A stretch of DNA of 38,660 nt from a virus. A program made the translations under genes and the position numbers. The notes beneath the pieces were generated by a model. That model ran no database searches, was not told where the DNA came from, and was given only the letters and a program-made list of their open reading frames with translations. Location: IMG/VR virus record IMGVR_UViG_3300035698_003817, positions 1-38,660 of that record; one strand, 5' to 3'. Shown here piece by piece: positions 17,425-37,508 of the stretch (position 1 is the first letter of the stretch; each line of letters begins with the position of its first letter).

Positions 17425-19470
17425 ATGTACGAAATAGAAAATAAAGACATAGTCATAAAAGGTTGGGAGAATGGTATCGCTGATAACCCTTACGAGGGTC
17501 TTTACGATATGCGCAACATTGATATTGGTTCAGTCACAGGTGAAGCAGGAGTCAATATGAAGACAGAAGTTACGCAAAGTCAAGGTGCTATTTCAGCAGT
17601 CACTTTTACAGCGACTAACGCGACTAATCTTTTCACTTATGACGGTGTCGTTCCTTTAGAGGTGAATACTTGTATAACAGTTGTAAACGCAGGGGGAGCG
17701 CTCCCAAGCGGTATGGCGGTTAACACAGCTTATTATGTTAAGACGATTCCAAGTGGAACTACCTTTACTCTTTCAAGCGCTAGCGCAGGTGGAGCAGAGT
17801 TAGCTATCGCAGATGACGGTACGGGAACTCAAAGTTTCTCTACTATAGATATCGGTAAGCCAATCACTTTTGAGAAAGCGACGACTGACCCCTTTGCTAG
17901 CTCCGACAAGACTATGTACTTTATGCTTGATAACAATGGCAGGTGTTGGGTGCACGATTCTATTACCTTTGGCAGTACGAATAAGTGGATATATATGCGA
18001 AGTAGGTCTACAGAAGACTTGAGTTCTACTCTCCAACAGGGTAGAGGTCTTATCTATTATAAAAATTACCTATTCGTGTTTACTAAGACCACGATTAGCG
18101 TTATGTGGCTAGATAACATTACGGTTGGGTCTATCTCGCTAGCTCTGATAACTACTCTCGCTAATTGGACTAGGTCTTGGCAAACTATTACTAGCACAGA
18201 CACCCACGAAGCTATCGTCTCGAAAGGTGACCTAGTTTATTTCTGTAACCACCATTATCTAGGTTCTATAGATGAACCAGAAGATTATGTATTTAGTCTT
18301 GCAGAGTTAGCTACCGTCGCTGACGGGGTAACTACAAGCGGAGACGGAACGATTACAACTGTTACTGCTTTCTTTGTTGATAATATGCTTGGTGCTGAGA
18401 TTGTTGGTGTCGGTATTCCGTCAGGAGCTAGAATCGGGTCAATCACAAATAGCAAAGAAGCAGAATTAGCAGTTGGCGACGAAGCTACGATTAACGATAC
18501 GGGTGTCACGTTTACAGTACCAGCAGGTTACGCGTTCACAGCTTCAGCTCTCTTCTTACCGAATGATATCGCGACGTGTATAGCAGAGCTGAATGGGTAC
18601 GTATTGACAGGTGGTGTAGAAAATGTTATTTATCCTTGGGATAGATTATCTACGACTTATGACTACCCGATACGTTTATCAGAAAACTATATTTCTAAAC
18701 TGGTCACAGTTAATACGACTACTTATATATTCGCAGGGAGAAGAGGAAACATCTATCAGACTAACGGTGGTAACGTCTCATATTTTAAGACTATACCTAT
18801 CTTTTTAAGCGAGACTTACAATCCTATAATCAGATTTCAAGACGCTATTTTTAACAGGAATCACTTGTACTTCAGTTTTACTGCTCAAGAGAATGACGGA
18901 ACTGATATAGATGAATACGGGGGAATTTGGGCGATTGATTTGAAGTCAGGTGGAATGTATCTCGCAAATCAGCTCTCTTATGCTACTTACGCAGGTTACG
19001 CCAGCGCGCTCTTTCCTTTTAATGGAGACGTGAGTAGCGCTTCGGCTACAAGTGTCTATAACGAGTTTGGTACTAATCAAGGAACAGGTTTGTTCGCAGG
19101 GTGGTACGACGGTACGAGTTATAACATTGATATATCAGATGAAGACCCATACTCAAGTGGTGAGTCATATGTGGTCTCAGATATGATTCCTACAGGTCAG
19201 ATTTGGACTAAAAGAACTTTCGAGAATATTGAATACAAGCTTGCTACTCCTTTAGTGACAGGAGAAAGTGTCGCGCTCTACTACCGTCAGAATATAACTG
19301 AAGCGTTTACTCAAATACCGATAACTCAAGGTGGTGCAGTTGGTGACCTATCAGGAATAGCAGGTGTCACTAACTTTGAGAATGTACAATGGATTCAGAT
19401 TAAGGCGGTGCTGACTAGCACGAATACAACTCCAAGCTTCGTAAGATTAAGAGAAATAAGAATCAGATAA
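17425..19470 (+). CDS. Large tail protein, beta-propeller-like (681 aa)
   Basis: The protein begins MYEIENKDIVIKGWENGIADNPYEGLYDMRNIDI. An inserted small beta domain follows at about residues 55-140 (FTYDGVVPLEVNTCITVVNAGGALPSGMAVNTAYYVKTIPSGTTFTLSSA), a motif seen repeatedly in phage tail proteins. The remainder has blades with Y-x-Y/W motifs (GLIYYKNYLFVFTKTTISVMW, YIFAGRRGNIYQTNGG, HLYFSFTAQENDGTDIDEYGGIWAIDLKSGGMYL), suggesting a beta-propeller tail hub or stabilisation protein like P22 gp10. The last codon overlaps the next ATG (TAATG). The specific role is inferred. Confidence 0.6.
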   Translation: MYEIENKDIVIKGWENGIADNPYEGLYDMRNIDIGSVTGEAGVNMKTEVTQSQGAISAVTFTATNATNLFTYDGVVPLEVNTCITVVNAGGALPSGMAVNTAYYVKTIPSGTTFTLSSASAGGAELAIADDGTGTQSFSTIDIGKPITFEKATTDPFASSDKTMYFMLDNNGRCWVHDSITFGSTNKWIYMRSRSTEDLSSTLQQGRGLIYYKNYLFVFTKTTISVMWLDNITVGSISLALITTLANWTRSWQTITSTDTHEAIVSKGDLVYFCNHHYLGSIDEPEDYVFSLAELATVADGVTTSGDGTITTVTAFFVDNMLGAEIVGVGIPSGARIGSITNSKEAELAVGDEATINDTGVTFTVPAGYAFTASALFLPNDIATCIAELNGYVLTGGVENVIYPWDRLSTTYDYPIRLSENYISKLVTVNTTTYIFAGRRGNIYQTNGGNVSYFKTIPIFLSETYNPIIRFQDAIFNRNHLYFSFTAQENDGTDIDEYGGIWAIDLKSGGMYLANQLSYATYAGYASALFPFNGDVSSASATSVYNEFGTNQGTGLFAGWYDGTSYNIDISDEDPYSSGESYVVSDMIPTGQIWTKRTFENIEYKLATPLVTGESVALYYRQNITEAFTQIPITQGGAVGDLSGIAGVTNFENVQWIQIKAVLTSTNTTPSFVRLREIRIR

Positions 19471-20093
19471 TGAACTTCAAAGACAAAAAAGAAATGGAGC
19501 AGATGATAGACTCCCGTATCGGTAGTTTTATGAACGCGAAGCAGTACTCACTATCTAAGATTCAGAGTCACAAGCACGACGGAGCAGACGCTCCAAGAGT
19601 CAGGTCAAAAGATTTGATTTATTCGACGAATAGGCAGTCTATGGTACACGCCTACGCTGACGTTAAGACTGAGGAAGAGACAGGCACTTCATATATTGAA
19701 TTTGCTTACCCAAAGAGAATAGACTTCAACGGGTTTATAGCTAATGGTGCAGAGGGTGGCGCTACGCCTAGCCCGTCAACTGAAAAAGCGACGACAAGTG
19801 GTCTCGCTGTCTTTGGAACTGCAGAGAATATCTCGGCTTTCTACCCAAACACACCAACGACTGAACCAGACGCCGACAGTATTGTTCACGGAAGCAATTA
19901 TATGTTTATAGATGAGACTGATTTGACGAATACGTGGGTGGGCGCAGGTAACCCCTATCTTGCTTTCGCGACTGACGACGGGAGCAATGTAATCGGTTAT
20001 CTTTCAATTACATCTTATTCTTCAGAGGGAATAACTATTGAATACTACGTTGATATTGGATTTTACATAATAGGAAGTATTATCATTACTTAA
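19470..20093 (+). CDS. Tail-region structural protein with SHKHDG motif (207 aa)
   Basis: The first 35 residues form a helix (MNFKDKKEMEQMIDSRIGSFMNAKQYSLSKI), then comes QSHKHDGADAPRV (about 32-44), a motif common in phage tail fibre/baseplate proteins. The rest is beta-rich and ends in hydrophobic strands (EYYVDIGFYIIGSIIIT). It is translationally coupled to the upstream tail gene by TAATG. It is probably an adaptor or fibre attachment protein. Confidence 0.6.
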   Translation: MNFKDKKEMEQMIDSRIGSFMNAKQYSLSKIQSHKHDGADAPRVRSKDLIYSTNRQSMVHAYADVKTEEETGTSYIEFAYPKRIDFNGFIANGAEGGATPSPSTEKATTSGLAVFGTAENISAFYPNTPTTEPDADSIVHGSNYMFIDETDLTNTWVGAGNPYLAFATDDGSNVIGYLSITSYSSEGITIEYYVDIGFYIIGSIIIT

Positions 20094-26166: not shown

Positions 26167-26486
26167 ATTTTTTTGTTTTGCGTTTCCGCTTTTTTTTGTT
26201 TAGTGAATAATTAATTTGTCCTTACGAGTACCTATCGACCAAAAGTACTGATTGTAGAACTCTGAGATATGTATTAGTAGCCTTACCCTCTCCACGAGAA
26301 TAAGAGACCCTGTTTCCGTTGTTTTTTCGTCTTTGATAGAAGACTACTACGGGAATTAATCCCTTTTCAACTTAGTGTCAGTATATAGACTTGAATTTCT
26401 ATGCCAGTCTCATTTGTATAGCTATCAACTCACAAACGAATACAATCACTAATACATATTTCAAAGTTCTACTATTGTCTGATTAC

Positions 26487-26514
26487 ATTATAGCAGACTG
26501 GTTGTCAGAGTCAA
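26487..26514 (-). promoter_or_regulatory. Minus-strand promoter, extended -10
   Basis: On the minus strand: TTGACT (26514-26509), a 16-nt spacer and TGC-TATAAT (-10 at 26492-26487) with the TGn extension. It drives the SSB operon. Confidence 0.7.
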
Positions 26515-26567
26515 GCTCCAATGCGCTAAAACGCTGTTTTTCGTCTGATTCTGCTATTTACGTGTAA

Positions 26568-26596
26568 ATTATAGCGCGCAGAATCGTCTCCAACGC
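26568..26596 (-). promoter_or_regulatory. Second, weaker minus-strand promoter
   Basis: On the minus strand a perfect TATAAT lies at 26573-26568. The -35 is poor: GCGTTG at a 17-nt spacing or TTGGAG at 14 nt. The surrounding bases resemble the first promoter (TTGGAG upstream, AATCAGAC downstream), suggesting a tandem duplication. Confidence 0.45.
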
Positions 26597-26745
26597 GTTT
26601 TTACTCAATAGTTGACTGATTATGCGTCTTTTTTACTGCTTGCGCCCAAGCTCTATTTTAACGCTTCCACTCACTCCCTATTTTCTGCAGATACGTGAGC
26701 TAGTCAAAACGTACCCACAGAGAGTAGGGAGCGAAACGCTATCCA

Positions 26746-26886
26746 CTATTTATCTTTTCGAGGAACCCATTTCTTCTTCACTTTATCTTTCTTCCCCGAT
26801 TTTTTCTTTCTAGCAGAGATACAGCGCCAACACCGACAAGGTTCGCCAGCTACGCCCTCGTGCTTTTGATTGAAAGAATTAGCCAT
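26746..26886 (-). CDS. Small basic Cys-cluster protein (46 aa)
   Basis: The 46-residue protein reads MANSFNQKHEGVAGEPCRCWRC... and contains a C17-x-C19-x2-C22 cluster followed by a highly basic tail (KKKSGKKDKVKKKW). The cluster and tail suggest a metal- and nucleic-acid-binding micro-protein. It overlaps the 3' end of the upstream zinc-ribbon gene by 8 nt, which supports it as a real, coupled cistron, and it is the last gene before the non-coding region. Confidence 0.6.
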   Translation of the reverse strand: MANSFNQKHEGVAGEPCRCWRCISARKKKSGKKDKVKKKWVPRKDK

Positions 26887-30402: not shown

Positions 30403-30732
30403 TTACTGAAAGCTTAATGCCATTTTCTCGAAGCCGTCTTCGTTCTCCTTGTACTCATCTTCTACCAACTTAACGACCCTGCGTAAGTAAGTTGCGATTC
30501 CCTGATTGCCAATTTGTCTTTGAGCTTCTAAGTCAAATATTTCAGCTTTCAGAGCAGGTAGCTCCGTAAAGATTTCCCCGAATGTAACTATGTCTCCGTC
30601 GTTACCCTCGATATGAGTTGTTAGCGCTTTCCAAACCTTGCTACTTGCCTTTAAGTCTGCGAAGAATCCAACGTTTGTGTCTAACCCTGCAGGTACACCC
30701 CACGTGTCTACTTTTCTAATTGCGAATCCCAT
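30403..30732 (-). CDS. Hypothetical protein (109 aa)
   Basis: The protein begins MGFAIRKVDTWGVPAGLDTNVGFFADLKASSKVWKALTTHIEGNDGDIVTFGEI and ends with a helix (YLRRVVKLVEDEYKENEDGFEKMALSF). It looks like a small soluble alpha/beta protein. No motif was recognised. Its position early in the minus-strand operon suggests early expression. Confidence 0.6.
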   Translation of the reverse strand: MGFAIRKVDTWGVPAGLDTNVGFFADLKASSKVWKALTTHIEGNDGDIVTFGEIFTELPALKAEIFDLEAQRQIGNQGIATYLRRVVKLVEDEYKENEDGFEKMALSFQ

Positions 30733-30757
30733 AAATTTATTTATTAGTGATTAATTT

Positions 30758-30913
30758 TTATCCCTTAAAACTATTCATCCACTCTGACAAAATAGTTCTT
30801 GCTTCGTTTTTCTCTAGCCCAAACTCTTGTTGCAGATATTGACCTGCGCCGTACATATTGGTCTTTCCGCTTTCTCTTAATTTGTCTAAGTACTCCTTAT
30901 GTTCTTTTTCCAT
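30758..30913 (-). CDS. Small helical phage protein (51 aa)
   Basis: The start at 30913 gives MEKEHKEYLDKLRESGKTNMYGAGQYLQQEFGLEKNEARTILSEWMNSFKG. The pattern YLD-LRESG-TNMYGA--YL---FGL---EAR-IL-EWM is typical of a widespread 50-80 aa phage protein family with a predicted helix-turn-helix; its role is unknown. The start is 4 nt after the upstream stop. Confidence 0.65.
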   Translation of the reverse strand: MEKEHKEYLDKLRESGKTNMYGAGQYLQQEFGLEKNEARTILSEWMNSFKG

Positions 30914-30917
30914 AAGT

Positions 30918-31214
30918 TTATTTACACGCTTTACATTGATAATCGTCCTCGAACTCAACCTCTGTTCTAAACCCCTCTTCTCCGCATACTGAACAGTTAA
31001 GCCAGTTTTCTAGCTTACCCTCGTTCAACATTGCGACTCTGTAGTCTTCATCTACTAAGAAGACGTTACCGGAGTTCATATTGAACTCGACCTTGACTCC
31101 CTCACCTAAATCACTACCCTGTTCAAAGTTTCGTTCCGATAGTGCTGTTAGAAGCTGTCCTGCTTCTCCCAACTCTCTAGACCCGAACTTCGATAAATCT
31201 TGTGTGTTATCCAT
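30918..31214 (-). CDS. First minus-strand gene: protein with C-terminal zinc ribbon (98 aa)
   Basis: The N-terminal half (FGSRELGEAGQLLTALSERNFEQGSDLGEGVKVEFNMNSGNVFLVDEDYRVAMLNEGKLENW) is followed by C75-x2-C78 and C94-x2-C97 (NCSVCGEEGF...YQCKACK), a zinc ribbon. It is the promoter-proximal gene of the minus-strand block and therefore probably the first expressed. Function unknown. Confidence 0.7.
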   Translation of the reverse strand: MDNTQDLSKFGSRELGEAGQLLTALSERNFEQGSDLGEGVKVEFNMNSGNVFLVDEDYRVAMLNEGKLENWLNCSVCGEEGFRTEVEFEDDYQCKACK

Positions 31215-31274
31215 AACTTTACTAATGAATTGATTTATAATGTAGTTAGAGTGACTAGCTCTTAACTTGTCTAT

Positions 31275-31303
31275 ATACTAGCATACTGCTTGCTATAACG
31301 CAA
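31275..31303 (-). promoter_or_regulatory. Minus-strand promoter for the early operon
   Basis: On the minus strand: TTGCGT (31303-31298), a 17-nt spacer and TAGTAT (31280-31275). Predicted leader to the ATG at 31214 is about 55 nt. It diverges from the plus-strand promoter at 31357-31384. Confidence 0.5.
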
Positions 31304-31356
31304 TAGGCTACAAGCGAACTGTTAATAAACTGTGTATAACTCGTATCAGGAGCGTT

Positions 31357-31384
31357 TTGACAAAAAGAATGGGTCTTATATAAT
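31357..31384 (+). promoter_or_regulatory. Consensus sigma70 promoter for the large candidate RNA
   Basis: Perfect TTGACA (31357-31362), a 16-nt spacer and perfect TATAAT (31379-31384). It is the closest match to consensus in the genome. Predicted start about 31391, immediately before the 5' arm of a long closing stem. Confidence 0.85.
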
Positions 31385-31390
31385 AGTAGT

Positions 31391-31868
31391 AATAAGTTGC
31401 ATAAAACGAAGAAGGAGGTTTGCGTCTCTATGCAACTTGTAGGCTTTTTTTAGCTGACTCGTTGGAAGATAAGCAAATGCTTGCGAGGATAAAGTACGAT
31501 ATAGCTTGACGACTTCCCTATATCGTCGGTCTGGTTGGAGAGGTGATAATCAGGTTTCAAGTTGTATTTCTCGCACATTCTTGGCGTCCTGCTATAAACG
31601 GTCAGAGAGAATGGAGCGAACTTCTCACTTAGCTTTTTACAGCTAGGGGGGAAGTCGCTTTTCTACAAGAGAGAATGAGATATAGATAAGAGATAAGAAA
31701 TAGATAGAGATAAAGAGTAGATATGAAAATGCTGTCTAGAGATTCAAATTGTACGTTATTTACTTGCCATAAACTTAGAATACCTGTACTATCTAGTTGA
31801 GACCCCCCAGTCTTCGTTTTATGCACAAACTTGAAAAAGGACAGCAACCTGCTTGTTCCTTTTTCTTT
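31391..31868 (+). ncRNA. Candidate large structured non-coding RNA, about 480 nt
   Basis: No plausible protein gene covers this interval. The ends are complementary: 31398-31412 pairs perfectly with 31811-31825 (15 bp, TGCATAAAACGAAGA), extended by AAGT/ACTT (31394-31397 with 31829-31832) after a 3-nt bulge. Internal helices include ACGATATAG/CTATATCGT (31496-31504 with 31518-31526), whose loop base CGACTTCCC (31510-31518) is complementary over 9 bp to GGGAAGTCG (31649-31657), a pseudoknot candidate. There are also CTTAGCT/AGCTAGG around 31628-31647 and GAGAA/TTCTC at about 31607-31626. A consensus promoter precedes it and an A-tract/T-tract terminator hairpin ends it. The size and ornate folding recall large phage-associated RNAs such as GOLLD and ROOL, but I did not recognise either. 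Confidence 0.65.
31833..31868 (+). terminator. Terminator of the large RNA, overlapping the next promoter
   Basis: GAAAAAGG (31833-31840) pairs with CCTTTTTC (31858-31865) with further pairs inside, giving about 12 bp with one bulge. The A-tract/T-tract form could work in both directions. The right arm contains the -35 of the downstream promoter. Confidence 0.65.
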
Positions 31869-31881
31869 ATGGGGTTATAAT
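31841..31881 (+). promoter_or_regulatory. Promoter with 16-bp operator-like motif, ParB/PAPS-reductase operon
   Basis: TTGTTC (31853-31858), a 17-nt spacer and TATAAT (31876-31881). The motif ACAGCAACCTGCTTGT (31841-31856) covers the -35; a 15/16 match lies in the same register at 35097-35112. The transcript would start about 1-2 nt before the ATG at 31890, so it is nearly leaderless. Confidence 0.7.
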
Positions 31882-31889
31882 TTAGTTAT

Positions 31890-32477
31890 ATGAATGAAAA
31901 ACTAATTTGGACTGCGAATGTTCGCAAAGTCTCTGAACTCAAGGAGCTAGAGCGAAACCCTAGAAGTATTACAGAAGAGGGCTTCAATCGTTTAGTTAAA
32001 AGGATAGAAGATAGAGGTTTCCACGACGTTATAAAATTAGACTCAGACGACAACATTTTGTCTGGTAACCAAAGGAGTAAAGCTTTAGTTAAAGCCGGTA
32101 TCGAAGAGGTGAACACTTTGTCTCCGAATCGCGCTCTTACTGAAGCAGAAAAGAAAGCGATAATCATTGAGAGCAACCGTACTGACGGAGCATTTGATTT
32201 TGATATGCTTGCTTCGGACTACACTCAAGCCGAGTTAGCTGACTTAGGATTCTCTCCTAGGGAGCTAGATATGGTTGATTTCCCTGAGCTAGAAGACTTT
32301 TCCCTAGACGCTAGAAACGAGGAACACGAGAATAAAAAATACGAGCTTCTTTTCGCAACCAACGAGGACTACAAAGACTTTCTCTCCTTTATGAAAGCGT
32401 TGAAAGAGGGATATCCTGAAAAAACGATATCTGATTCACTCTTAGCTTTTTTACGGGATAATGTTGAAGCAACATAA
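31890..32477 (+). CDS. ParB-like (ParB/Srx-fold) protein (195 aa)
   Basis: Residues 16-72 form a ParB N-terminal-like domain (LKELERNPRSITEEGFNRLVKRIEDRGFHDVIKLDSDDNILSGNQRSKALVKAG) with GNQR (59-62) in place of the G-x-HR phosphate-binding box. The segment NRTDGAFDFDMLASDYTQAELADLGFS (96-122) is typical of phage ParB-like proteins next to DNA modification enzymes. The C-terminus (KKYELLFATNEDYKDFLSFMKALKEG) adds a small alpha/beta unit. It overlaps the next gene by 17 nt. It is probably a DNA- or nucleotide-binding partner of the PAPS-reductase-like enzyme, not a chromosome segregation protein. Confidence 0.8.
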   Translation: MNEKLIWTANVRKVSELKELERNPRSITEEGFNRLVKRIEDRGFHDVIKLDSDDNILSGNQRSKALVKAGIEEVNTLSPNRALTEAEKKAIIIESNRTDGAFDFDMLASDYTQAELADLGFSPRELDMVDFPELEDFSLDARNEEHENKKYELLFATNEDYKDFLSFMKALKEGYPEKTISDSLLAFLRDNVEAT

Positions 32478-33642
32478 CGGAACAGAAAAAGTCCATACAG
32501 ACCTGAGCGTCTATGAAGCTTCTAAGGCGCGTATTCATTTTTGCTATGACAATTACGACGAAGTCCTAGTTAACTGTTCTGGTGGTAAAGATTCACAACT
32601 CCTAGTCTTACTGACCAAAGAGGTTGTTGAAGAGCGAGGGCTAGATGAAAAAGTGAAAGTCGTATTTTATGACCAAGAGTTTATATATCCTGAGACTGAG
32701 AAATTTATAGCTAACTTATTCAAGCAAGAGTGGGTCACTGGCTACAGATTATGTCTTGATATGGGTATGGAAATCGCGAATCCTGATGGCTCTTTCATTT
32801 CAGTCACCTTTTGGGATAAAGAGCGTAAGTTTTTCAGACCAAAGCCCGAAGACGGTATTTTCTCTGACAATGAGTACTTCGATATAGTCCGAGGAGAGCG
32901 AGCTGTACGAGACTTAATCTTCCCTGACGGTGGAAGTAAGAAGATTTGTCAGCTTATTGGAACTAGAGCGCAAGAATCAATCACGCGATTGTCTACGATT
33001 CTAGCTAGCTATAGAAAAGGCGCTCAATGCTTCCTACGTCACTCTTTAACAGCGCGTGGTACTGATATTGGTACACCTATATATGATTGGCTTGAGCCTG
33101 ACGTTTGGTTTTACCTTAAAGGCAACGATATCTTAGAGCTGAATGAAATGTATTACCTAGAAATGATAAACAACAGACCTCTTCGCGTGGGCGTACCTAT
33201 TAATAACAGCACGATTAAGAATATCGCTGATATCAAGAAAAAGAATCCCAAGTACTATGAAATGTTGACGAGTATGTTCCCAGAGATTGATACAGCAGGG
33301 CGATATGCGTCTTCACTAGCTCAGTTCAACGACTACGATAAAATGGTGGAGAAGTACGGTATGAGTATTCGGGGTATCAAGAATCTGCTGAAAGATATCA
33401 TACCTGATGACGAAATGAGACTGTTCGCGTTATATAAGTTCCGTAAGTTTGTTAGAGATTATATTGAATTTGACAGATATACGAAATATGGTCATACCCG
33501 AGAGTCAGCGCTTAGGGTGGCGTTTATCTCATTCTGTAAAAACAACTATTCTAAAAATATTATGCTTAGGAATAAGGTCGAGACCAAAAAAGAGCGCGTC
33601 GCAAGAGAATTAAAAGAACAAGAAAATGAGAATAGCCTTTGA
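32461..33642 (+). CDS. PAPS reductase/ATP-pyrophosphatase family protein, IbrA-like (393 aa)
   Basis: The PP-loop SGGKDS lies at residues 40-45, GTRAQESITR at 167-176 and PIYDWLEPDVWFYL at 206-219. These are the adenylation and substrate motifs of the PAPS reductase/adenine nucleotide alpha hydrolase superfamily. The ~390-aa length and helical C-terminal half match IbrA-type proteins, which pair with ParB-like IbrB. Related enzymes (DndC/SspD) activate sites for sulphur insertion in DNA phosphorothioation, but no cysteine desulfurase or other Dnd gene is present. The substrate is unknown: DNA, a nucleotide or RNA. It overlaps both neighbours (17 nt each), indicating a tight operon. Confidence 0.85.
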   Translation: MLKQHNGTEKVHTDLSVYEASKARIHFCYDNYDEVLVNCSGGKDSQLLVLLTKEVVEERGLDEKVKVVFYDQEFIYPETEKFIANLFKQEWVTGYRLCLDMGMEIANPDGSFISVTFWDKERKFFRPKPEDGIFSDNEYFDIVRGERAVRDLIFPDGGSKKICQLIGTRAQESITRLSTILASYRKGAQCFLRHSLTARGTDIGTPIYDWLEPDVWFYLKGNDILELNEMYYLEMINNRPLRVGVPINNSTIKNIADIKKKNPKYYEMLTSMFPEIDTAGRYASSLAQFNDYDKMVEKYGMSIRGIKNLLKDIIPDDEMRLFALYKFRKFVRDYIEFDRYTKYGHTRESALRVAFISFCKNNYSKNIMLRNKVETKKERVARELKEQENENSL

Positions 33643-35096: not shown

Positions 35097-35137
35097 ACAG
35101 TAACCTGCTTGTAATACGCAGGGAGCTATATTATAAT
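35097..35137 (+). promoter_or_regulatory. Promoter with 16-bp operator-like motif, chaperonin operon
   Basis: TTGTAA (35109-35114), a 17-nt spacer and TATAAT (35132-35137). ACAGTAACCTGCTTGT (35097-35112) matches 15/16 of the motif at 31841-31856, again with its TTGT in the -35. CCTGC/GCAGG (35104-35108, 35118-35122) forms a further dyad. Confidence 0.75.
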
Positions 35138-35158
35138 TAAGACAGAGCTTTAATTCGT

Positions 35159-35229
35159 TGACAGGGGAATTCCACCCCATAACTTTATAGGGGTTGCTCG
35201 TTCTACGGAGAATACGAGCTTCCCTGTCA
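35159..35229 (+). promoter_or_regulatory. Three-way-junction leader RNA before the chaperonin operon
   Basis: TGACAGGG (35159-35166) pairs with CCCTGTCA (35222-35229), and AA/TT may extend it past a bulged G. Within it, ACCCC (35174-35178) pairs with GGGGT (35190-35194), and GCTCGT (35196-35201) pairs with ACGAGC (35214-35219), with inner TCT/AGA pairs. This compact junction sits in the 120-nt 5' leader between promoter and first gene. It resembles a riboswitch or protein-binding leader in form, but no known class is recognised. Confidence 0.6.
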
Positions 35230-35262
35230 GCGCATTATAAAATTAATTAATTAATAAAAATT

Positions 35263-35511
35263 ATGTCAGACAAAAAAACAGAGCCAAAGAAAGTAGAGGT
35301 CAAGACAGAAGAGCCAAAGGTAGCGACTGGATTATCATTAGAAGATAGAGGTAAAAAGTGTAGTGAAGAAATTGCTGTAGTACTCAAAAAGTACGATATG
35401 GCTCTAGCGGTAAATATCGAGGGAGCGCAAGAGTTTATTAATACATTGAAACCAACCCTGATTGAGACGATTAAGGAAGTAGCGCCAATAGAGTCAAAAG
35501 AAAATGAGTAA
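35263..35511 (+). CDS. Hypothetical acidic/basic protein, first gene of chaperonin operon (82 aa)
   Basis: An N-terminal disordered Lys/Glu stretch (MSDKKTEPKKVEVKTEEPKVATG) precedes a helical domain (LEDRGKKCSEEIAVVLKKYDMALAVNIEGAQEFINTLKPTLIETIKEV). It starts after an A/T-rich leader and overlaps the next gene by 8 nt. Function unknown; it could be a substrate or partner of the chaperonin because of cotranscription only. Confidence 0.65.
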   Translation: MSDKKTEPKKVEVKTEEPKVATGLSLEDRGKKCSEEIAVVLKKYDMALAVNIEGAQEFINTLKPTLIETIKEVAPIESKENE

Positions 35512-35767: not shown

Positions 35768-35979
35768 GTAAAGGAAAATTAGAAAGAGATTCAGCTTGGC
35801 ATAAAGAACACGGTAAAAAGCTGAAGCGTAGGAAGAAAATAGCAAAAGCTCACTTACTGGCTTTGAAAAGACCAGTAGCTAAGAAGAAAAAGGTAGTAGC
35901 GCCTAAAGCAAATCCTATTCTTGCAAAGGTATCTTGGTGGAAGAAGATTATTCATAGAATTAAACAGATTTTAAAATGA
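35764..35979 (+). CDS. Small highly basic protein (71 aa)
   Basis: The protein (SKGKLERDSAWHKEHGKKLKRRKKIAKAHLLALKRPVAKKKKVVAPKANPILAKVSWWKKIIHRIKQILK) is over one-third Lys/Arg. The C-terminal amphipathic WWKKIIHRIKQIL looks membrane-active or nucleic-acid-binding. It starts at an ATGA overlap and ends at a 4-nt overlap with the chaperonin gene. Function unknown. Confidence 0.6.
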   Translation: MSKGKLERDSAWHKEHGKKLKRRKKIAKAHLLALKRPVAKKKKVVAPKANPILAKVSWWKKIIHRIKQILK

Positions 35980-37508
35980 GCAAACAAGTAAAATTCAGAG
36001 AAGAAGAGAGGGATAAAGTTAAGGCAGGTTTAGATATCGCGACGAAGTTAGTTCGAACTACATTGGGTCCGAAAGGGCAAAACGCGTTTATTGATGATAA
36101 GCTACAGCCGAAGATAACGAATGACGGTAAGATGATTCTGAACTCAATCACTTTAAAAGATAAGTTTGAGAATATGGGATTGTGGCTAGCTAAAAACGCG
36201 AGCAGTCAAACTGATGATGACGCAGGAGACGGTACGTCGACTACGACTGTCCTACTCGAAGCTATAGTCGCTGAAGCGCAGAAGAGACCTGAAAGTGTTA
36301 TGGATATTAAGCGTTCTTTACTCGAGACAGGCGCTAGAGTCGTTGAGTATATCAAAGAAGCGTCTACTTCTATAAAAAAAGAACAAATTGCGTCAGTCGC
36401 GAGCATATCCTCAGAGAGCGAGACTATAGGAGAGCTTATCGCTGAAGTAGTCGAAGAAGTGGGCGAGAAAGTGCCGGTGAAAGTTGAAGATAACGCTATG
36501 CCTAGAATCGAGTATGAGATATCGCAAGGATTAGAGACTCCTGTTGGGTATGCTGACCCTGCGTTTATCAATGATATTCGCAACGGAACTTGTGAATTGG
36601 AAAACGTCGCTGTATTCGCAACAGACCATAAGATATCTAGCTTACCTGACTTGACTGTATTCTTAGAAATGTTGAAAACGAATCAACTCAGTAATATCGT
36701 TATGTTGGTGGCTGATATCGACGCTTCAGTTCAAGGAATCTTCGTGAACTCAAAGCATATGGGTACAATGAATCCTTTAATCATTCACGCTAGAAATGCA
36801 GACCTAGACGATATGGTGGCTATGTCGGGAGCGACTCTGATATCTGAAAAAACGGGATTAAAATTGTCTGACGTAAAGCTCGAACACTTAGGAACGGTTA
36901 AGAAAATTGTAGTAGGCAGTAGAAAAACCGTAATTGTGAATGACTCTCCACTAGCTAAAGAGCAAGCTGAGAAGCTTAGGGCTATGGCAGAAGAGACCAA
37001 GAATATGTACGAAAAGCAGTTTATTTCTGATAGAGCCGATAGGTTAACTGGTGGAATCGCTGTTATCAAGGTTGGAGCTAATGTAGATATTGAAAGAGAA
37101 TACCAAAAGTACAAAATTGAAGACGCTATAAACGCGACTAAATCAGCGCTAGATGAGGGTATCGTTGAGGGTGGTGGTATGTGTCTCTACAGAATATCAA
37201 ACAAGTTCAAAGGGAACTCGATTGGTGAAGCGATACTAAGAAACGCGCTAAAAGCTCCGCTTAAAGCTATCATTGAAAATTGCGATGAAGACTACACCGC
37301 AGTTATCAAGAAAATGACTAGGAACAAAGGCTACGACGCTAAAGAGAACAAAATGGTCGATATGATAGAGTCGGGAATCATAGACCCAGCTAAGGTGACG
37401 CGTTGCGCCTTTGAAAACGCGCTAGAAACCGCCAGTAATTATATAACTATGTCCGTCTGTATAGCTGATGACGAAGAGGAAGAAGAAAAACAAATACCTA
37501 GACAATAA
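35976..37508 (+). CDS. groEL: GroEL-type group I chaperonin (510 aa)
   Basis: This is a complete Hsp60/GroEL homologue with ATPase motifs TLGPKG (29-34), NDGK (D50, equivalent to E. coli D52), GDGTSTTTVL (D85, equivalent to D87) and IEDAINATKSALDEGIVEGGG (D383, equivalent to D398). The C-terminal equatorial domain (GYDAKENKMVDMIESGIIDPAKVTRCAFENA) aligns well. Differences: 510 versus 548 residues; the apical domain lacks the KAPGFGDRRKAML-like stretch; Y203 of E. coli is Ala (GYADPAFIN, A196); and the Gly-Met tail is replaced by an acidic tail (DDEEEEE). It would fold a phage protein, perhaps the capsid, in the host cytoplasm. It is followed by a GroES-like gene, the reverse of the bacterial order. 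Confidence 0.93.
   Translation: MSKQVKFREEERDKVKAGLDIATKLVRTTLGPKGQNAFIDDKLQPKITNDGKMILNSITLKDKFENMGLWLAKNASSQTDDDAGDGTSTTTVLLEAIVAEAQKRPESVMDIKRSLLETGARVVEYIKEASTSIKKEQIASVASISSESETIGELIAEVVEEVGEKVPVKVEDNAMPRIEYEISQGLETPVGYADPAFINDIRNGTCELENVAVFATDHKISSLPDLTVFLEMLKTNQLSNIVMLVADIDASVQGIFVNSKHMGTMNPLIIHARNADLDDMVAMSGATLISEKTGLKLSDVKLEHLGTVKKIVVGSRKTVIVNDSPLAKEQAEKLRAMAEETKNMYEKQFISDRADRLTGGIAVIKVGANVDIEREYQKYKIEDAINATKSALDEGIVEGGGMCLYRISNKFKGNSIGEAILRNALKAPLKAIIENCDEDYTAVIKKMTRNKGYDAKENKMVDMIESGIIDPAKVTRCAFENALETASNYITMSVCIADDEEEEEKQIPRQ

Follow-up and report, generated by a model that had tools for sequence, protein, structure and literature searches.

The region at positions 31357–31890 of IMG/VR record IMGVR_UViG_3300035698_003817 may be the replication-origin region of a phage, with a non-coding transcript, RNA1, as its origin transcript. 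We put this forward tentatively, from a comparison of layouts: the region appears to be closer to a known phage origin started by a transcript than to the giant RNAs that form cages. The reading starts from features observed in the sequence, namely a promoter, a stem (P1) that pairs the two ends of RNA1, the absence of genes, the position between gene blocks, runs of G or C, and repeats. In the window (the whole stretch of 38,660 nt that was analysed), the relevant features are the following:

30918–31214, minus strand: first gene of the leftward block, with no known function (ORF list, PHROG scan).
31357–31384, plus strand: sigma70-type promoter of RNA1, TTGACA-16-TATAAT (12/12 consensus).
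31391–31872, plus strand: predicted non-coding transcript RNA1 (no credible ORF; MFE z-score −2.76).
31392–31451, plus strand: alternative 5' hairpin (31392–31403/31429–31440) followed by a U tract, terminator-like (−15 kcal/mol).
31393–31427, plus strand: 5' strand of P1, with 5 pairs, a bulge, the 15-bp core 31398–31412 and inner pairs including GUCUC (inverted-repeat scan, duplex energy).
31496–31526, plus strand: 9-bp hairpin ACGATATAG/CTATATCGT, the loop of which contains one arm (31510–31518) of a proposed pseudoknot (repeat scan, folding).
31616–31664, plus strand: strongest local hairpin of RNA1, with a short U tail, terminator-like (−22.6 kcal/mol, z-score −7.0).
31646–31651, plus strand: G6 run, complementary to the C6 run (run count).
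31667–31723, plus strand: purine-rich, AT-rich, iteron-like imperfect tandem repeats of 17–18 nt (repeat scans).
31797–31834, plus strand: 3' strand of P1, with GAGAC, CCCCCC, the 15-nt core 31811–31825 and ACTTG (inverted-repeat scan, duplex energy).
31803–31808, plus strand: C6 run (run count).
31833–31865, plus strand: terminator-like hairpin at the end of RNA1, 9 bp, with a weak U tail (−12 to −13 kcal/mol; absent from the consensus scan).
31841–31881, plus strand: second promoter, TTGTTC-17-TATAAT (31853–31881), with the motif ACAGCAACCTGCTTGT in common with 35097 (motif comparison).
31890–32477, plus strand: first gene of the rightward block, ParB-like (PHROG matches).

The window carries a terminal direct repeat of about 127 nt (1–127/38534–38660); its map is therefore circular and complete, at about 38.5 kb. 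Circularity is supported by contig L004, which spans the circular join and is 100% identical to the window across TerL, GroEL, PAPS reductase and most of the ParB proteins; it is the sole near-identical contig and begins just downstream of RNA1. The phage belongs to a GroEL-carrying family, and its host is probably a patescibacterium because its TerL has relatives in 7 of the 380 Patescibacteria genomes searched (Patescibacteria being the only phylum covered) as well as on contigs binned as Parcubacteria or Nealsonbacteria. The GroEL-like protein is encoded at 35976–37508; in related phages (24–68% identity) the gene mostly lies near that of the terminase. The genes form a leftward block (exonuclease, gp32-like SSB, HNH) and a rightward block (ParB-like, PAPS reductase, ParB, nucleases, GroEL, terminase, capsid, tail), which diverge at 31214/31890. 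GC skew tracks gene direction and singles out no origin. Genes with family matches include those for the exonuclease, the gp32-like SSB and the nucleases, and among the scanned genes with such matches none was recognised as coding for a polymerase, helicase, primase or initiator; use of the host machinery is therefore plausible. Since no function is known for many small genes, a phage initiator may exist, which argues against an origin of this kind.

A first-pass annotation of this DNA had described a perfect TTGACA-N16-TATAAT promoter followed by about 480 nt without a credible gene, and both observations hold. Indeed, the promoter lies where it had been placed and exceeds chance, and the open reading frames of the 31391–31872 interval are small (42–72 aa), the longest open frame on the plus strand having 57 codons; no PHROG relatives were found for the three longest ORFs of the interval. 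A short frame inside P1 preceded by a Shine-Dalgarno sequence (ATG 31430, 7 codons) was rejected, since few genes of this phage have such a sequence. RNA1 is predicted to start about 7 nt past the −10 element, and its 3' end is uncertain. The sequence supports the annotated structured non-coding transcript with its own promoter in the divergent control region.

At spacings of 20–600 nt, P1 is longer than every other inverted repeat of the genome (none of 20 shuffles contained one longer than 13 bp). The mismatch-free end pairing that had been reported is exactly 15 bp long (31398–31412/31811–31825) and exceeds chance; the extra pairs past a 3-nt bulge are present too and number about 5 instead of 4, and GUCUC/GAGAC provides inner pairs. 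The end-to-end duplex has an energy of −32.6 kcal/mol, versus −13.6 ± 3.3 kcal/mol in shuffles, 0 of 2000 of which reach −32.6. Its two arms are the sole copies of the motif in the window, except for one chance-level site with 3 mismatches. The alternative 5' hairpin excludes the outer part of P1 and is thus a local competitor of the P1 5' arm.

The z-score of the whole RNA1 is owed mainly to P1: 160-nt windows in the junction have z-scores of about −2.2 to +2.2, for a genome-wide standard deviation of 1.25, so that the internal local stability is ordinary. The hairpin at 31616–31658 is the top terminator-like site of the genome, and its 3' arm contains the other arm (31649–31657) of the proposed 9-bp pseudoknot. 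The pseudoknot pairing is present in the sequence, but it does not rise above chance, and its 3' arm is engaged in the far stronger hairpin. The 675-nt junction contains four perfect 9-nt inverted repeats, and simple arithmetic gives an expectation of about 0.4–0.6 in 480 nt. The 9-bp pairing could be one state of a switch. The terminator annotated near 31868 does exist as a 9-bp hairpin, but its function as a terminator is doubtful: its U tail is weak, the consensus scan does not list it, and it overlaps the conserved motif of the second promoter. This motif, ACAG[CT]AACCTGCTTGT-N20-TATAAT, recurs at 35097, and the ParB gene (31890) is nearly leaderless behind it. The 31357–31384 and 31853–31881 promoters, both consensus matches alone, have the same direction and flank the non-coding stretch.

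Two of the six runs of 6 G or C in the genome are in RNA1. Runs of at least 5 occur at 2.0 per kb in 15 family junctions versus 0.61 in non-coding DNA elsewhere and 0.40 in coding sequence, in a comparison for which the junctions were picked by gene layout and the test was chosen after the fact. No such run is present at the junction of G025 (TerL 78%, GroEL 68%), the only relative syntenic at the RNA1 locus, which counts against an origin. Repeats exceed those of shuffles in 9 of the 13 family junctions tested, several being iteron-like; the window is included, with P1 contributing there. The purine richness of 31661–31732, considered as a hint of an R-loop, was dropped because its level is ordinary for the genome.

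In the record of Lactococcus phage c2, a 611-bp intergenic stretch between early and late genes is the putative origin and holds the early promoters EP1 and EP2. The c2 PE1 promoter gives rise to a non-coding transcript that is perhaps crucial for initiation, and the Ceduovirus phages have three origin types without mutual similarity, cloned fragments of which replicate as plasmids without phage proteins (PMC7150918). We found that the 5' part of the c2 transcript folds into a closing stem and that it has C5 and G7 runs. The window shares with c2 the divergent blocks, several hundred non-coding nucleotides between two promoters of the same direction, a structured transcript, G/C runs and the lack of recognised replicase genes; moreover, the dissimilarity of origin types among related phages fits the lack of resemblance between G025 and the window at this locus. 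A c2-type origin should be free of ORFs of 100 bp or more between its promoters; in the window this interval does contain small ORFs of 42–72 aa, for which no relatives were found. By contrast, PE1 runs into the early block whereas RNA1 points to the ParB/GroEL/terminase (late) block, the c2 and window sequences are not similar, and the hosts differ. Because the likeness is one of layout alone and the direction of the transcript differs, we do not file the RNA1 region as a c2-type origin. No repeat excess over shuffles was found in c2 itself; repeats are therefore no shared defining trait.

The second system to be compared is ColE1, in which a promoter 550 bp upstream of the origin yields a transcript that primes replication without an initiator (PMC5043065). 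RNA II is marked by a lasting RNA–DNA hybrid and a primer generated by RNase H. As for ColE1 RNA II, the RNA1 promoter precedes the proposed priming region by about 500 nt, the RNA is structured and non-coding, and an initiator protein is not known. RNA1 differs from RNA II in that no opposing promoter for an antisense RNA I was found (the consensus scan gave no minus-strand promoter-like site in 30500–32500), in that it has no Rfam match, and in that the R-loop is here a predicted one.

We therefore propose the following sequence of events for an origin at 31357–31890, each step being conditional on the reading itself. Host RNA polymerase would start at the consensus promoter between the diverging gene blocks, and RNA1 would fold with its 5' end tied into P1. 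Remaining untranslated, RNA1 would open the DNA, possibly through a lasting hybrid with the template strand around the G/C runs and the AT-rich purine repeats; it would then be cut and prime DNA synthesis by host enzymes, as does ColE1 RNA II and as proposed for the c2 PE1 transcript. Transcription, R-loop, priming and the very identity of the region as an origin are what we infer from the observed features. Counted against the proposal are the direction of RNA1 relative to PE1, the lack of repeat excess in c2, the uninformative GC skew, the after-the-fact choice of junctions and runs, and the lack of an RNA I-like antisense promoter. Patescibacteria phages are almost wholly uncultured; transcript-primed origins, if real, would explain how genomes of about 39 kb are copied without a recognised replicase, would extend the c2/ColE1 principle to a distant bacterial branch, and would make short junction fragments testable plasmid origins.

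The origin transcript is one of four readings, along with a leader, a trans-acting RNA and a DNA element, and the four are not all mutually exclusive. It is possible, though in our judgement doubtful, that RNA1 is the 5' leader, long and attenuated, of the rightward operon (ParB, PAPS reductase, nucleases, GroEL, terminase and virion genes): P1 would clamp the 5' end, hairpins near 31445, 31658 and 31865 would restrain transcription, and read-through would feed the operon. Between the promoter and ParB, three hairpins that resemble terminators do lie at these places, their U tails being weak to moderate, and the fact that P1 and weak terminators suit a leader equally well is counted against the origin. 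In addition, two other promoters of the window lead into a P1-closed structure and then a gene. The SSB leader (26254–26514, minus strand) has the promoter TTGACT-16-TATAAT (26514–26487), is non-coding and lies upstream of the gp32-like SSB gene; its P1 (26472–26447/26279–26254) has 25 bp with one mismatch, and its fold a z-score of −3.86. At 35097–35260 (plus strand), the promoter motif ACAGTAACCTGCTTGT-N20-TATAAT, also found at 31841, is followed by a three-way-junction-like leader and a gene at 35263. The SSB leader and the 35109–35237 leader share the same plan: promoter, about 14–23 nt past the −10 element, long closing stem, gene. In the SSB leader of G025 (19766–19861, minus strand), the same place after the promoter is likewise taken by a two-part closing stem with a different sequence.

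The SSB leader and RNA1 have the two best 5'-end closures among 244 intergenic family promoters, and a −10 element followed by a long stem with a score of at least 16 was found in 11 cases in 495 gaps versus 0.5 in shuffles, although DNA repeats account for part of this count. The succession of a promoter and a terminator-like hairpin is also seen at the G025 and G002 junctions and, less clearly, at that of L279. However, with a score of at least 14, P1 after a promoter occurs at a similar rate in six control phages (2 in 19 kb versus 13 in 134 kb). P1-closed leaders were therefore dropped as a family-specific mark: a P1-closed structure after a promoter is a feature that phage leaders share generally, not a hallmark of the family. 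Further points against a leader are that ParB has its own promoter, with the shared motif and a near-leaderless start, which makes read-through unneeded, that the other leaders are far shorter than RNA1, and that P1 of RNA1 runs at once into a hairpin. The late leader of phage lambda is an attenuated phage operon leader with antitermination. RNA1 has in common with it a constitutive-type promoter and terminator-like hairpins ahead of an operon, but the first gene here has its own promoter and no Q-like antiterminator was recognised among the genes scanned, many of which have no known function. A very stable hairpin region (26560–26800, minus strand; z-score of about −7 in a 160-nt window) occupies the gap upstream of the SSB promoters.

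The first-pass annotation had taken RNA1 for a stand-alone structured RNA, perhaps of an unreported class. That it acts in trans as such an RNA, possibly of an undescribed class, is unlikely, even though it has a perfect promoter, a gene-free interval and an end-to-end P1 that leads straight into a U-tailed hairpin. RNA1 resembles GOLLD and ROOL, which are often encoded near tRNA islands, in being phage-encoded, several hundred nucleotides long and extensively paired by prediction (PMC12286853). It differs from them in that it has no covariance-model match and is shorter than GOLLD, and in that no tRNA (or tmRNA) was found in the window. Indeed, no Rfam family was detected in the window at the gathering score, and two chance matches alone were obtained in 31340–31890 at E up to 10, so that membership of GOLLD, ROOL or any other Rfam family is excluded.

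Relatives were collected through viral searches with the ParB-like protein, PAPS reductase and GroEL as queries and through alignments of TerL (two), GroEL, exonuclease and ParB, which gave some 300 loci. By blastn, no homologue of RNA1 was found in 50,697 phage records (INPHARED), in the fetched relatives or, two short chance-level matches aside, in the 380 Patescibacteria genomes; the two short matches, in L397 and L398, showed no extension and were rejected. The syntenic gap of G025 is 560 nt long, gene-free and followed by a ParB homologue; its promoter is weak, its terminator-like hairpin strong, and it has no useful sequence similarity to the window. It contains neither an end-to-end stem (−6.1 kcal/mol) nor the pseudoknot. 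Two likenesses between the window and G025, TCTTGGCG and a hairpin loop starting with TTGRCG, were dropped because their structural place is not the same. In other relatives the divergent junctions are gene-free and their sequences unrelated. With no alignable homologue, no P1 or pseudoknot in G025, a chance-level pseudoknot, ordinary internal stability and an end hairpin that overlaps a promoter, "stand-alone" and "unreported class" are left unsupported, all the more so as the two other P1-closed structures after promoters in the same genome are 5' leaders of genes. A role as origin or leader explains the position of RNA1 at least as well.

Quite improbable, too, is that the inverted repeat, without any functional RNA, acts as DNA alone and serves the divergent promoters as an operator or forms an origin dyad there. 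Long inverted repeats do occur at the divergent junctions of G044, G051, G039, L277, L286 and G002; several of these derive from direct repeats, whereas the P1 arms of the window do not, are the only copies of their motif apart from the chance-level site, and sit at the expected start and end of the transcript. Least probable of all is a new Patescibacteria-phage class of large structured RNA, free in trans, with a fast sequence turnover and architecture alone kept, a claim without positive comparative support.

Among the relatives, long perfect inverted repeats (23, 18 and 15 bp), partly made of short direct repeats, lie at or near the divergent junctions of L286 (8183–8400) and G044 (18010–18561), two of them being nested in G044. 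Positions 1370–1490 of L154 (G005), also a relative, may hold another small RNA: they comprise a site that looks like a promoter, structured sequence of about 110 nt and an end that resembles a terminator.
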